This document shows positions 16,935 through 21,113 of a stretch of 64,000 bases of DNA, piece after piece. The translations under genes and the position numbers were made by a program. Every line of letters starts with the position of its first letter. The first letter of the stretch is position 1. The stretch spans positions 434,001 through 498,000 of the forward strand of contig NZ_CP039852.1 in the NCBI RefSeq assembly GCF_006228385.1. The letters run 5' to 3'. A model generated the notes under the pieces. The model was not told the DNA's origin and did no database searches. It saw only the letters and a program-made list of their open reading frames with translations. The DNA comes from Salinimonas iocasae. GTDB lineage: Bacteria > Pseudomonadota > Gammaproteobacteria > Enterobacterales > Alteromonadaceae.

Positions 16935-18119
16935 ATGGCAAAAGAAAAGTTTGAACGTACGAAACCCCATGTAAACGTGGGTACAATCGGCCACGTTGAC
17001 CACGGTAAAACCACTCTGACTGCAGCGATCACTACAGTTCTTGCAAAGACCTACGGTGGTTCAGCAAGCGCATTCGATATGATCGATAACGCGCCAGAAG
17101 AAAAAGCACGTGGTATCACCATCTCTACTTCACACGTTGAATATGACACGCCTACTCGCCACTACGCGCACGTAGACTGTCCTGGACACGCTGACTACGT
17201 TAAGAACATGATCACTGGTGCCGCACAGATGGACGGCGGTATTCTTGTAGTAGCTGCGACAGATGGTCCTATGCCACAAACTCGTGAGCACATCCTTCTG
17301 GGTCGTCAGGTAGGTATTCCTCACATCATCGTGTTCATGAACAAATGTGACATGGTAGATGACGAAGAGCTGCTTGAGCTGGTAGAAATGGAAGTTCGTG
17401 AACTTCTTAACGAATACGAATTCCCAGGTGATGACCTGCCGGTAATCAAAGGTTCTGCACTGAAAGCGCTGGAAGGCGACGAAGAGTGGGAAAAGAAAAT
17501 TATCGAGCTGGGCGAAGCACTGGATTCATACATTCCAGAGCCAGAGCGTGCAATCGATAAGCCGTTCATTCTTCCAATCGAAGACGTATTCTCAATCTCA
17601 GGCCGTGGTACAGTAGTAACAGGTCGTGTAGAGCAAGGTATCATCAAAGTTGGTGAAGAAATCGAAATCGTAGGTATGAAAGATACTACGAAGACGACTT
17701 GTACCGGTGTAGAGATGTTCCGTAAGCTTCTGGACGAAGGCCGTGCCGGTGAGAACGTTGGTGTTCTTCTGCGTGGTACTAAGCGTGACGAAGTTGAGCG
17801 TGGTCAGGTTCTGGCGAAGCCAGGGTCAATCACTCCTCACACGAAGTTCGAAGCAGAAGTATACGTACTGAGCAAAGACGAAGGTGGCCGTCACACGCCA
17901 TTCTTCAAAGGCTACCGTCCACAGTTCTACTTCCGTACAACTGACGTAACGGGTGCTGTAGAGCTTCCAGAAGGCGTTGAAATGGTTATGCCTGGTGACA
18001 ACCTGAAGTTCGTAGTAGAACTGATTGCACCAATCGCGATGGACGAAGGTCTGCGCTTCGCAATCCGTGAAGGTGGTCGTACAGTAGGTGCTGGTGTTGT
18101 AGCGAAGATTTTTGAATAA
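16935..18119 (+). CDS. tuf: Translation elongation factor Tu
   Basis: 394 residues, the usual length. It starts [19 protein letters not shown] and shows [10 protein letters not shown] (G1), [12 protein letters not shown] (switch I), [12 protein letters not shown] (G3), NKCD (G4) and the domain II/III sequences through to VVAKIFE. EF-Tu-GTP delivers aminoacyl-tRNA to the ribosome. It closes the str operon and has an excellent terminator 24 bases after the stop. A decayed second copy of its last codons and terminator lies about 240 bases downstream, and the S10 ribosomal operon that often follows tuf is not present. Confidence 0.98.
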
Positions 18120-18143
18120 TCTTAGCTGACATCTGGTCACTTG

Positions 18144-18171
18144 AAAAAAGGTCGCGTAAGCGGCCTTTTTT
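18144..18171 (+). terminator. Terminator of the str operon (after tuf)
   Basis: A 12-bp stem, AAAAAAGGTCGC (18144-18155) and GCGGCCTTTTTT (18160-18171), has a GTAA loop and one T-G pair. This is a classical rho-independent terminator located directly behind tuf. Confidence 0.93.
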
Positions 18172-18339
18172 GTTTTACCCGACCACCTGAACAGATTTCC
18201 GTGACAAATTTGTCTGGAACAACTTATTGGCACAGTACATGGGACTCACCCGAAACGCGAGCTGCTACACAAACCTAGTTAACAACTGGCAAGGGATGGC
18301 TTTAAGGGCGCAGGGTAGGAAGCCCGTAGTCATGTTATT
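18172..18339. other. Unassigned sequence between tuf and its decayed copy
   Basis: No ORF or convincing RNA gene is visible. Toward the right end, GGCTT (18299-18303) and the AAGCC of TAGGAAGCCCGTAG form a short potential stem. This sort of GGAAGCCC ending recalls the 3' ends of IS200/IS605-type elements, but no transposase or TnpB sequence is present, so this is only a weak resemblance. Confidence 0.3.
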
Positions 18340-18482
18340 GTACAGTAGGTGCTGGTGTTGACAGAAAATTGCTCCTGCATTTTCTGCACTTTCGACATCC
18401 ATGTCGGTCGTATCGAAGATTTTTGAATAATCTTAGCTGACATCTGGTCACTCGAAAAAAGGTCGCGCCCGCGGACTTTTTT
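18340..18482 (+). pseudogene. Decayed duplicate of the tuf 3' end and its terminator
   Basis: The 21 bases 18340-18360 repeat 18079-18099 of tuf exactly. Bases 18414-18466 repeat 18103-18155 (last tuf codons, stop, spacer and left terminator arm) with a single T-to-C difference. Between them, 53 bases replace the original three. The duplicated terminator (18455-18482) has one mismatch in its stem. It is clearly copied from tuf or from a second tuf gene and no longer codes for anything. Confidence 0.9.
18361..18413. repeat. 53-bp double-palindrome insert in the tuf remnant
   Basis: It contains two adjacent inverted repeats: CAGAAAAT (18362-18369) with ATTTTCTG (18379-18386) around a 9-base loop, and CGACAT (18393-18398) with ATGTCG (18401-18406) around two bases. 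Paired small hairpins are typical of REP/BIME-like intergenic repeats. No other copy was found in this window. Confidence 0.6.
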
Positions 18483-18656
18483 CTTTTTACTGACCCGTCC
18501 TAAATAGCATTGTGATTTTTTGTAAACAGCCTAACACTCACAGATTTAAATATTCGATAACCGCCTCAATAAAGCTAGATGTTGAGCATGACCTAACATG
18601 TAAATTCAGATATTAAGACCAGTACTGCTAACCAGACTATGCTAGTAGCATTCAAC

Positions 18657-18702
18657 CACCGTAGAGATATTTGTACTTAAATATCTCTACGGTGCTTTTA
18701 TT
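18657..18702 (+). terminator. Perfect 16-bp hairpin with T-rich tail upstream of the bacteriocin-like gene
   Basis: CACCGTAGAGATATTT (18657-18672) pairs without mismatch with AAATATCTCTACGGTG (18679-18694) across a six-base loop, followed by CTTTTATT. It has the form of a rho-independent terminator but has no gene in front of it. It lies 42 bases before the start of the 76-codon gene and may be a leader attenuator or an insulator. Confidence 0.8.
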
Positions 18703-18735
18703 TGTTCGGTTATTTATTCTAGAGAAAACGCTAAA

Positions 18736-18966
18736 ATGGACATACTAAATATTTCAGAGGTTCATGAAGTTACTGGCCGTTCTATATCAATTGGAGAAGC
18801 AGTTGCTATGGGCGGCTTTGTAGGTGAGGCGGGGGTCGCTGGAGCTGGTAGCATTTTGGTAGGGTGTGGCTATGCGGGCCATTCTTTTGGTACCGCTATT
18901 GATTTGGTTGATCTAGGTCGTCGTTTGGTCGGATGGCTCTATGATGTGGCTCATAAAAAACATTAA
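18736..18966 (+). CDS. Small glycine-rich bacteriocin-like peptide
   Basis: 76 residues, of unrecognised family. The N-terminus MDILNISEVHEVTGR resembles the leader of double-glycine-type peptides (hydrophobic residues and Glu spaced as in M-x-x-L-x-x-x-E-x-x-x-V-x-G), but the usual GG is GR here; a GG pair occurs at residues 26-27. A glycine/alanine-rich stretch with repeated GxxxG spacing follows (residues 27-51), then an amphipathic tail ending in KKH. This layout is that of unmodified pore-forming class II bacteriocins. A possible two-helix partner starts nine bases after the stop. A bacteriocin role is inference, since no transporter or peptidase gene is nearby. The Shine-Dalgarno is weak (TAGAGAA). 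Confidence 0.6.
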   Translation: MDILNISEVHEVTGRSISIGEAVAMGGFVGEAGVAGAGSILVGCGYAGHSFGTAIDLVDLGRRLVGWLYDVAHKKH

Positions 18967-18975
18967 GCACACTTG

Positions 18976-19170
18976 ATGACTGCAAAGAAAACGCTTTTTA
19001 TGTGCAGCCTTGGAAGGTTAGTGATACTGGGTCTGAGTGCAACCGGCGGATTGATGATTTATCCAGCGGTAACAGCTGATTACGCTATAGAAGCTCATTT
19101 TGTCTGGGGTTTGCTGCCGATAGCTAGTGTGGTGGGGATATTGGTTGCTCGCGATATGAGCCCGAAATAG
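18976..19170 (+). CDS. Small two-helix membrane protein, possible immunity partner
   Basis: 64 residues from ATG 18976; an in-frame TTG directly before it (18973) is the less likely start. There are two hydrophobic segments, at about residues 14-31 and 42-58, separated by a short acidic/aromatic loop, with basic residues at the N-terminus and a charged tail ending RDMSPK. It begins nine bases after the stop of the glycine-rich peptide gene and lacks a good Shine-Dalgarno, so translation is probably coupled. Small bitopic or two-helix proteins coded directly behind a bacteriocin are often immunity proteins, which is the reason for the suggestion. The family is not recognised. Confidence 0.55.
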   Translation: MTAKKTLFMCSLGRLVILGLSATGGLMIYPAVTADYAIEAHFVWGLLPIASVVGILVARDMSPK

Positions 19171-19437
19171 GGGCTATCTCGTTTTTAAGGACAGTTTATT
19201 AAGGACGTAAATTTGTTATACTGATTAGCAAGTTTACGTCGTACTTTTCGAGTTATGGGGCCAATCAACATAGTCAGATATATCTGCTATGGCTTCATCT
19301 CTGGCACCGCACTGTGTTAGTTAATGCGTTCCCGTCCCACCACGTCCCCAAAAATCATTACTAAAGGAGACACTGCCTCTAGTTACTTTATCTACTGCTG
19401 CAGTTTGTCACGCTTTCAGCGACTCAGGAGGTTAGAA
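19171..19437. other. Intergenic region with a candidate promoter and overlapping inverted repeat
   Basis: A TATACT hexamer lies at 19216-19221 with only a weak TTTATT -35 candidate. It is enclosed by the inverted repeat GACGTAAA (19204-19211) and TTTACGTC (19232-19239), so an operator around a promoter is possible. The region ends with the strong Shine-Dalgarno AGGAGG of the next small gene. Confidence 0.35.
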
Positions 19438-19542
19438 ATGATAGTGATAACAGATGAAATTTTACTGCAATTTGCATCAGACTGCTGCGCAAGTAACATA
19501 CGCTTCCCGTATGAACTCTTAAGAATACTTTCTTCGTCATAG
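19438..19542 (+). CDS. 34-residue small protein with a perfect Shine-Dalgarno
   Basis: The frame starts at ATG 19438 and ends with TAG at 19540-19542. A full AGGAGG (19426-19431) stands exactly six bases before the ATG, the best ribosome site in this region and a strong reason to believe in translation. The peptide starts MIVITDEILLQFAS, has a Cys-Cys pair at residues 16-17, and ends in three serines. It has no clear membrane helix and no recognised family. A longer frame beginning at 19324 is in the same phase but has no ribosome site. The 248 bases to the next gene show nothing certain. Confidence 0.45.
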   Translation: MIVITDEILLQFASDCCASNIRFPYELLRILSSS

Positions 19543-19790
19543 AAACTTCTTTCAGGCCTGACATGCCTCTTTATGGATGTTTCCGTAAAATCTGGGTAGA
19601 ACCTTATCAGCTTAAACGTACGACAGGCTTCTTTTATTAGCGATAGCGATACTTAACGCCGGTACTCAGGCCAATGTCTTCTCTTATCCTATTAGACGGC
19701 TGACAATGCTAACCGTATCCAAGGCCGGGAATTTATTTGGATGGCTGTCTATAGTATACAGATGGTTTAACATTCCTGAGCCAGCCATCG

Positions 19791-21113
19791 ATGCGCTTTC
19801 AACCTCCAGATGCATGCAAAACACTAAACTTAATGCTGTGCTTAATGGTATTTGGTTCTTTTACACCATTATGTGCAGAGCAACTGCCAGATGCTAAGGC
19901 ATCCAATCCGGAAAAATTACAGTGGATGCAGGGCTTTCCTCCTGAACCTGAGCGTTTAATCACACAGCCGCAGAGTAATTTCTTCAGCTTTCCAAAACTC
20001 CGGTGGAGCGTTTGTCATATACGTGAACTCATGCCTACGAAACAGGTGAGTCGGGGGATTGTTGGGCCCGGATTATGGCAATCGCGTTTAGCTCCTGACA
20101 TCGATAAGATTACCTTCAACGCCGGTGATAGCAAAGAGCAGCTAACATGGCGGCAATCTTTAGCGCGTAACTATACCGACGGTATCCTAGTACTTCACAA
20201 AGGCGTGATTGTTTACGAGCAATATTTTGGCTGTATGCGTCGTGACGGAAAGCATGCCGCAATGTCTATGACAAAATCACTTATTGGCTTACTTGCCGAA
20301 ATATTGATTGCAGAGGGTACTCTAGATGATAGGCAACTGGTTAAATCTATCATCCCGGAACTTGCAGATAGTGGGTTTGGCGATGCCACTATTCGTCAGG
20401 TGATGGATATGACAACCGCCGTGGACTTTAATGAAGACTACAGTGACCCGGGGGCTGATATATGGCAATACTCTGTGGCCACAGATCCCTTCGCCTCACC
20501 TTCTGACGGACAACCGGTTGGTTATTTTGCTTATTTGAAAGGAGTCAAAAAACAGGGAATACATGGCAAAGCGTTTGGCTATCGTACGGTCAATACAGAC
20601 GTTCTTGGATGGGTCATAGCCAGAAAAACAGGAAAAGATGTGGCCAGTCTACTGAGCGATAAAATTTGGCAGCACATTGATGCGGAGCAGGATGCGTACA
20701 TGACTGTTGATAGGCTAGGTACACCATTTGCGGGTGGTGGCTTAAGTGCCGGGCTAAGAGACCTGGGGCGGTTGGGGCAGTTGCTTCTTGATGATGGCAA
20801 ATATAAGAATAAACAAATTATTCCGGCAGCTACCATAGCCAGTATAGAGCAAGGAGGTGATAAAGCGGCATTTGCGAAAGCAGGATATCTGACGTTAGCG
20901 GGCGGTAGCTATCGTAGCATGTGGTGGTTATTGCATAACAAAAATAACGCGTATGCGGCCAGAGGAGTTCACGGGCAGACACTCTATATCGACCCTGTGG
21001 CTCAAATGGTTATCGTACGCTTTGCTTCTTTTCCGCACGCTAAAAACCATTACATTGATCCCACTTCGCTACCCGCGTATGAGGCGTTAGCAGATTATCT
21101 TTTAAAAAAATAA
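19791..21113 (+). CDS. Exported serine hydrolase of the beta-lactamase/6-aminohexanoate-dimer hydrolase family
   Basis: 440 residues. A hydrophobic signal segment covers residues 12-28. The nucleophile motif SMTK (S159, K162) is the class C beta-lactamase/penicillin-binding-protein SxxK box, followed by the family's tyrosine region (GYRTVNTDVLGW). The late HGQTLYIDP segment is characteristic of NylB/EstB-like hydrolases and not of true beta-lactamases, which have KTG. The substrate is unknown; carboxyl esters, amides and short peptides are hydrolysed by relatives. The start at 19791 is chosen because the signal peptide follows it; the Shine-Dalgarno is poor. It stands alone, with the DUF2339 gene 90 bases downstream. 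Confidence 0.8.
   Translation: MRFQPPDACKTLNLMLCLMVFGSFTPLCAEQLPDAKASNPEKLQWMQGFPPEPERLITQPQSNFFSFPKLRWSVCHIRELMPTKQVSRGIVGPGLWQSRLAPDIDKITFNAGDSKEQLTWRQSLARNYTDGILVLHKGVIVYEQYFGCMRRDGKHAAMSMTKSLIGLLAEILIAEGTLDDRQLVKSIIPELADSGFGDATIRQVMDMTTAVDFNEDYSDPGADIWQYSVATDPFASPSDGQPVGYFAYLKGVKKQGIHGKAFGYRTVNTDVLGWVIARKTGKDVASLLSDKIWQHIDAEQDAYMTVDRLGTPFAGGGLSAGLRDLGRLGQLLLDDGKYKNKQIIPAATIASIEQGGDKAAFAKAGYLTLAGGSYRSMWWLLHNKNNAYAARGVHGQTLYIDPVAQMVIVRFASFPHAKNHYIDPTSLPAYEALADYLLKK

Follow-up and report, generated by a model that had tools for sequence, protein, structure and literature searches.

A putative class II microcin-like gene pair in Salinimonas with an apparently degenerate precursor and signs of horizontal exchange

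Within the 64,000-nucleotide stretch of the Salinimonas iocasae genome analysed here (the window), we identified two adjacent small genes that probably form a class II microcin-like cassette of Salinimonas that has undergone horizontal exchange, with the window copy of the precursor in decay. The first gene (18736..18966, + strand) encodes a Gly/Ala-rich, leader-bearing precursor of 76 residues, whose leader (residues 1-15) ends in GR and not GG. The second (18976..19170, + strand) starts nine bases after it and encodes a 64-residue membrane protein with two hydrophobic segments, the immunity candidate. Both reading frames are as described in a first-pass annotation, which had proposed a bacteriocin/immunity pair; this proposal holds in part, as it is supported by the GG leader of the relatives and by conserved adjacency, but the window copy itself looks degenerate and carries GR. 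For the relatives of this putative microcin pair, we infer that the leader of ~15 residues ending in GG would be recognised and cut in trans by a chromosomal C39 ABC exporter (with HlyD and TolC), that the Gly/Ala-rich peptide so freed would target the inner membrane of competing cells, and that the small membrane protein would shield the producer. In the window strain, GG would have changed to GR, the core would have shortened and the ribosome site would have weakened, with the immunity frame remaining open.

To identify relatives, 146 related genomes (own genome included) were searched with the window precursor at a reporting limit of E <= 1. Matches were returned in 46/146 genomes and reached E <= 0.01 in seven, and the remaining 39 weak genomes (E > 0.01) were counted as noise. 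Besides the window genome, the seven comprise S. profundi (G021; 8e-14), S. chungwhensis (G030; 1e-12), Alteromonas halophila (G042; 2e-7), and G044, G051 and G015 (0.002-0.006). The six relatives share 75, 66, 46, 46, 33 and 33% identity with the window precursor in the alignment, and all seven sequences have the leader pattern in common, together with a C-terminal YD. The membrane protein matched 41/146 genomes at E <= 1, strongly only in its own genome, S. profundi (1e-31; 84% identity) and S. chungwhensis (2e-23; 63%), and in both of these species the homologue adjoins the precursor. A weak match in G106 (E 0.002) has an internal stop. These homologues led us to reject the idea that the two genes are chance reading frames. 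Conserved adjacency, which the first-pass annotation had named as a check, was found: a small membrane ORF lies 3′ of the precursor on the same strand in 7/7 loci (gap 9-66 bases), clearly homologous in S. profundi and S. chungwhensis. At the four remaining loci, the small ORF downstream is 12-22% identical to the window membrane protein over the alignment, and these ORFs may be unrelated to it.

A profile built from the precursor alignment matched 9/59 genomes of the genus, and its seven strong matches were its own seven rows. Weak places in G054, G057 and a second one in S. chungwhensis (E 0.001-0.004) were excluded from the members. G054 has, at L083:5151-5622 (- strand), two overlapping Gly-rich peptides with GG leaders that have the appearance of a two-peptide bacteriocin. 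A scan of genome contigs with the window precursor gave no match, and with the precursors of four relatives it gave at least three loci, all already known (S. profundi, A. halophila and S. chungwhensis). When the S. profundi precursor and membrane protein were used as queries against a plasmid collection, no relative was found at E <= 0.01.

The leader end distinguishes the window copy from its family. GG is present in 6/6 relatives in the column where the window has GR (residues 14-15); therefore, GR reads as a loss in the window lineage. This argues against the earlier suggestion of atypical processing at TGR or at GG 26-27, and by eye no leader pattern precedes the latter. In addition, the core of the window copy lacks 13 residues that the four closest relatives have; since the precursor is 74 residues long in two relatives, shortness alone does not disqualify it. 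The predicted Shine-Dalgarno duplex is also the weakest of the seven (-2.9 kcal/mol, compared with -5.1 to -6.0 in the six relatives). Given the GR site, the shorter core and the weaker ribosome site, the window precursor looks degenerate and is probably no longer cut and exported normally. We considered whether the pair might instead be a working variant, in which the exporter would tolerate GR or cleavage would fall elsewhere, and selection would have driven the peptide to diversify. Bacteriocin cores are often variable, both window frames are open, and dN/dS between the window and S. profundi is below 1 (precursor 0.44, membrane gene 0.39), all of which would suit such a variant. However, available excerpts of two review-type sources (PMC9746304, PMC10233263) place cleavage at a GG or GA motif, and this, together with the GG of every relative, the poor Shine-Dalgarno sequence and the unsuitable context of GG 26-27, makes a working variant improbable.

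Substitution patterns are consistent with relaxed constraint on the pair in the window lineage. Replacement:silent changes were assigned to branches by parsimony with the window, S. profundi and S. chungwhensis. On the window branch the counts were 16:7 for the precursor and 9:4 for the membrane gene, compared with 22:92 for the C39 exporter (p 5e-6 and p 4e-4, respectively) and 23:65 for HlyD (p 2e-4 and p 3e-3), whereas neither of the other two branches gave a significant difference in these comparisons (p 0.21-1). The window branch was also longer than that of S. profundi for the precursor (23 vs 4) and the membrane gene (13 vs 3), and was not longer for the exporter and HlyD. Across eight other genes, dN/dS between the window and S. 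profundi was 0.01-0.13; between S. profundi and S. chungwhensis, it was 0.14 for the precursor and 0.30 for the membrane gene. Positions conserved in two outside relatives accounted for 8/15 changes on the window branch and 1/8 on the others (p 0.086), and the precursor ratio did not differ between the window and S. profundi branches (16:7 vs 2:2, p 0.58). The open frames agree with either outcome: when 23 random substitutions were simulated, 55% of the copies likewise stayed open. With so few changes counted, and with large transporter genes being generally more constrained, relaxed constraint on the pair is likely, and loss of function of the window copy is what we infer from it. A somewhat unlikely alternative is orphan immunity, in which the toxin gene is being lost and the membrane protein is kept against the microcin of relatives such as S. 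profundi. The membrane protein is intact and 84% identical to that of S. profundi, the damage falls on the window precursor, and intact pairs exist in relatives, as orphan immunity would predict. Yet the membrane gene is as relaxed as the precursor on the window branch (p 1.0), and nothing therefore suggests that the membrane gene alone was guarded.

We then compared the divergence of the cassette with that of other genes. In the comparison of the window with S. profundi, the precursor has a dS of 0.29 and the membrane gene one of 0.20, compared with 1.15-2.95 for the eight other genes (C39 ABC, HlyD, the serine hydrolase next door, DUF2339, CstA, a graspetide-like precursor, ATP-grasp and HslU). 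Therefore, the common ancestor of the cassette is much younger than that of its surroundings. In agreement, identity to S. profundi per 100 bases is 77-90% across 18501-19300, in coding and non-coding sequence alike, and beyond 19300 it is 61, 48, 48 and 66%, with 64-80% in the hydrolase gene. Horizontal exchange would explain this low divergence, and on these sequence comparisons the cassette was probably exchanged. With its low divergence amid sequence that split much earlier, the cassette would offer a clean example of a toxin gene decaying after an exchange, which further Salinimonas genomes could test.

The sequence in front of the cassette may bear on how such an exchange occurred. The window carries tuf (elongation factor Tu, 394 aa; 16935..18119, + strand) after fusA, and a second copy, 99.5% identical, lies at G000:C1:585638-586822. 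What had been taken for a decayed tuf copy proved, by blastn and a DNA search of the genus, to be only a partial tuf 3′ end with its terminator (18340..18481, + strand), split by an inserted intergenic repeat (~18361-18407). The same tuf-tail/repeat composite ends S. profundi contig 9, beside a gene that, in the window genome, comes after the second tuf copy, and three composites occur in G014, two of which flank an 820-aa ORF (L113/L111/L112 are the S. profundi and G014 composites). The S. profundi contig that holds the pair starts inside the tuf tail, so the contig does not cover its junction with tuf. These arrangements suggest that tuf tails serve as recombination homology. A broader reading is that, in Salinimonas and its kin, the tuf 3′ end is a recombination landing site for toxin/immunity and other cassettes, which would carry a partial tuf tail and the intergenic repeat and be swapped between tuf loci and species; the worn microcin pair would then be an example, seen partway through the loss of its toxin gene. 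We regard this reading as unlikely at present. Separately, the second contig of the window genome carries a Tn3-family transposase stretch (L090:6535-8000) that is 99.7% identical to stretches on Escherichia, Pseudomonas and Shewanella plasmids.

No exporter gene is adjacent to the window pair. The earlier description of it as an orphan is thus accurate for the neighbourhood but not for the chromosome, where a C39 exporter and HlyD are encoded elsewhere. The window genome has one peptidase-C39 match (120.8 bits), a 721-aa ABC transporter with HlyD adjacent (G000:C1:502489-504654), which lies ~49 kb away from the pair, 4.5 kb beyond the end of the window. By eye, the exporter has the Cys, His and Asp that we take to be those of its peptidase motif. 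TolC is also encoded (TIGR01844, 374.7 bits, over the cut-off), with four weaker matches below the cut-off. The exporter is part of a graspetide-like cluster (G000:C1:501006-505907, L043:3006-7907) of an ATP-grasp protein (TIGR04187 at 138 bits, below the cut-off of 350), a 62-aa precursor, the C39 exporter and HlyD. The leader-like part of this 62-aa peptide ends in VNGG, and its core is nearly identical in S. profundi. There, the graspetide-like block adjoins hslU, the exporter is 91% identical to that of the window strain, and the pair and exporter are ~50 kb apart, as in the window strain. In A. halophila, an ATP-grasp-like ORF at the exporter falls just below the Pfam cut-off. Among the stretches read by eye from a length/motif-filtered list, none was seen beside the exporter of S. 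chungwhensis, G051, G015 or the contig C1 copy of G044; the ORF of similar size beside the exporter in G051 and G015 is a 3-keto-disaccharide hydrolase. In G015, a decayed peptidase-C39 fragment with stops (L049:7800-8096) directly follows the precursor and membrane ORF, which suggests that an exporter once stood next to that pair.

C39 peptidases occur in 58/59 genomes of the genus, so the presence of the exporter is not specific evidence for a microcin cargo. Class II microcin exporters are described as promiscuous, with secretion via non-native exporters reported, in available excerpts of PMC10233263. Export of a microcin-like precursor of the window type in trans by the chromosomal C39 exporter is therefore plausible. 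As no exporter adjoins the pair, this precursor family could escape surveys that require one nearby.

The pair was also compared with established family models. In Pfam and NCBIfam, neither window protein scored over a cut-off, and a His1_capsid match (16 bits vs cut-off 27) was set aside. Bacteriocin_IIc (PF10439), which had been named as the profile to check, gave no window match and at best 18.4 bits in a relative (gathering score 27.1). The MccV profile (PF17508) matched 4/7 members weakly (9.4-18.8 bits, cut-off 27), with the window at 9.4 bits and the best relative at 18.8. The bacteriocin signal model TIGR01847, which reports on the leader only, was passed by 2/6 relatives, G051 and G015 (16.4 bits vs NCBI cut-off 15.7), and did not match the window copy. 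Similarly, the lactobin A/cerein 7B model TIGR03949 was below its cut-off in the six relatives and unmatched by the window copy. That no proven-microcin profile reaches its cut-off in the family, and that the TIGR01847 matches cover the leader alone, would suit a secreted GG-leader peptide with another role, e.g. signalling, and a second gene unrelated to immunity. We consider this very doubtful, since the size, the Gly-rich hydrophobic core and the two-segment membrane partner fit class II microcins, and the partner varies between subgroups, as matched immunity proteins would.

Class II microcin leaders are given as 15-18 aa ending in GG or GA in excerpts of PMC10233263. The window precursor departs from this with its GR; an adjacent small membrane immunity candidate, a C39 ABC transporter with a membrane fusion protein, though unlinked, and a TolC outer membrane factor are all encoded in its genome. 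By eye, the aligned precursors lack the C-terminal Ser/Gly-rich motif of class IIb (siderophore) microcins, their YD being followed by Lys/His/Asn-type residues. The cassette most resembles the MccV type (class IIa, unmodified) in its short precursor, the GG leader of the relatives, the adjacent small membrane immunity candidate and the presence of C39 ABC, HlyD and TolC genes; it differs in lying outside Enterobacterales, in the distance to its exporter and in the window copy having no GG. The leader pattern of the family is also like that of PF10439, TIGR03949 and TIGR01847. A further likeness, by description only, is to the McbC type of Moraxella catarrhalis (PMC2761928), a GG-type bacteriocin of a Gram-negative species. 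It too comes with an immunity factor and with secretion genes, the latter plasmid-borne and close by, in contrast to those of Salinimonas. Based on the GG leader of the relatives, the small membrane ORF after every precursor and the exporter parts in trans, we assign the window pair on sequence grounds to a new precursor family resembling class II microcins, in which the window copy, for want of GG, is filed as a degenerate relative and not as a certified member. We found no description of this family in the searched literature on class II microcins or bacteriocins in Alteromonas and Salinimonas, and it adds a microcin-like precursor family of marine Alteromonadaceae without a neighbouring exporter.

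Finally, the pair is bracketed by two hairpins. The front hairpin (18657..18694, + strand), a perfect 16-bp stem with a T-rich tail as originally annotated, lies 41 bases before the precursor ATG, and its 16 pairs are followed by CTTTTATTT. Its fold (-24.9 kcal/mol, z -7.6) was equalled in stability by 0/200 shuffles. Relative to S. profundi, where the hairpin was located by alignment, 12/16 pairs are unchanged, two are changed on both sides and two are broken; this copy has diverged beyond a 3-mismatch pattern search, which found no further copy in seven genomes (<=3 mismatches). In S. chungwhensis no equivalent local hairpin was seen, and the 170 bases upstream adopt another, long fold (-32.3 kcal/mol). 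Possible roles of the front hairpin are attenuation, insulation from tuf read-through and 5′ stabilisation. In Rfam, nothing in 18100-19800 exceeded a gathering score; the tuf terminator gave two weak sRNA matches (E 0.33). A promoter scan of 18120-19800 returned one site, on the minus strand (shuffles average 3.2). A terminator-like hairpin follows the pair (19204..19240, + strand; 15 pairs, z -4.9, 0/200 shuffles as stable), of which 10/15 pairs are unchanged in S. profundi, three are changed on one side, one on both and one is broken. With two sequences compared, the conservation of these hairpins lends modest support to RNA structure. A strong hairpin also follows the S. chungwhensis pair (z -5.7), and 18120-19800 holds five terminator-like sites, compared with 1.5 in shuffles.
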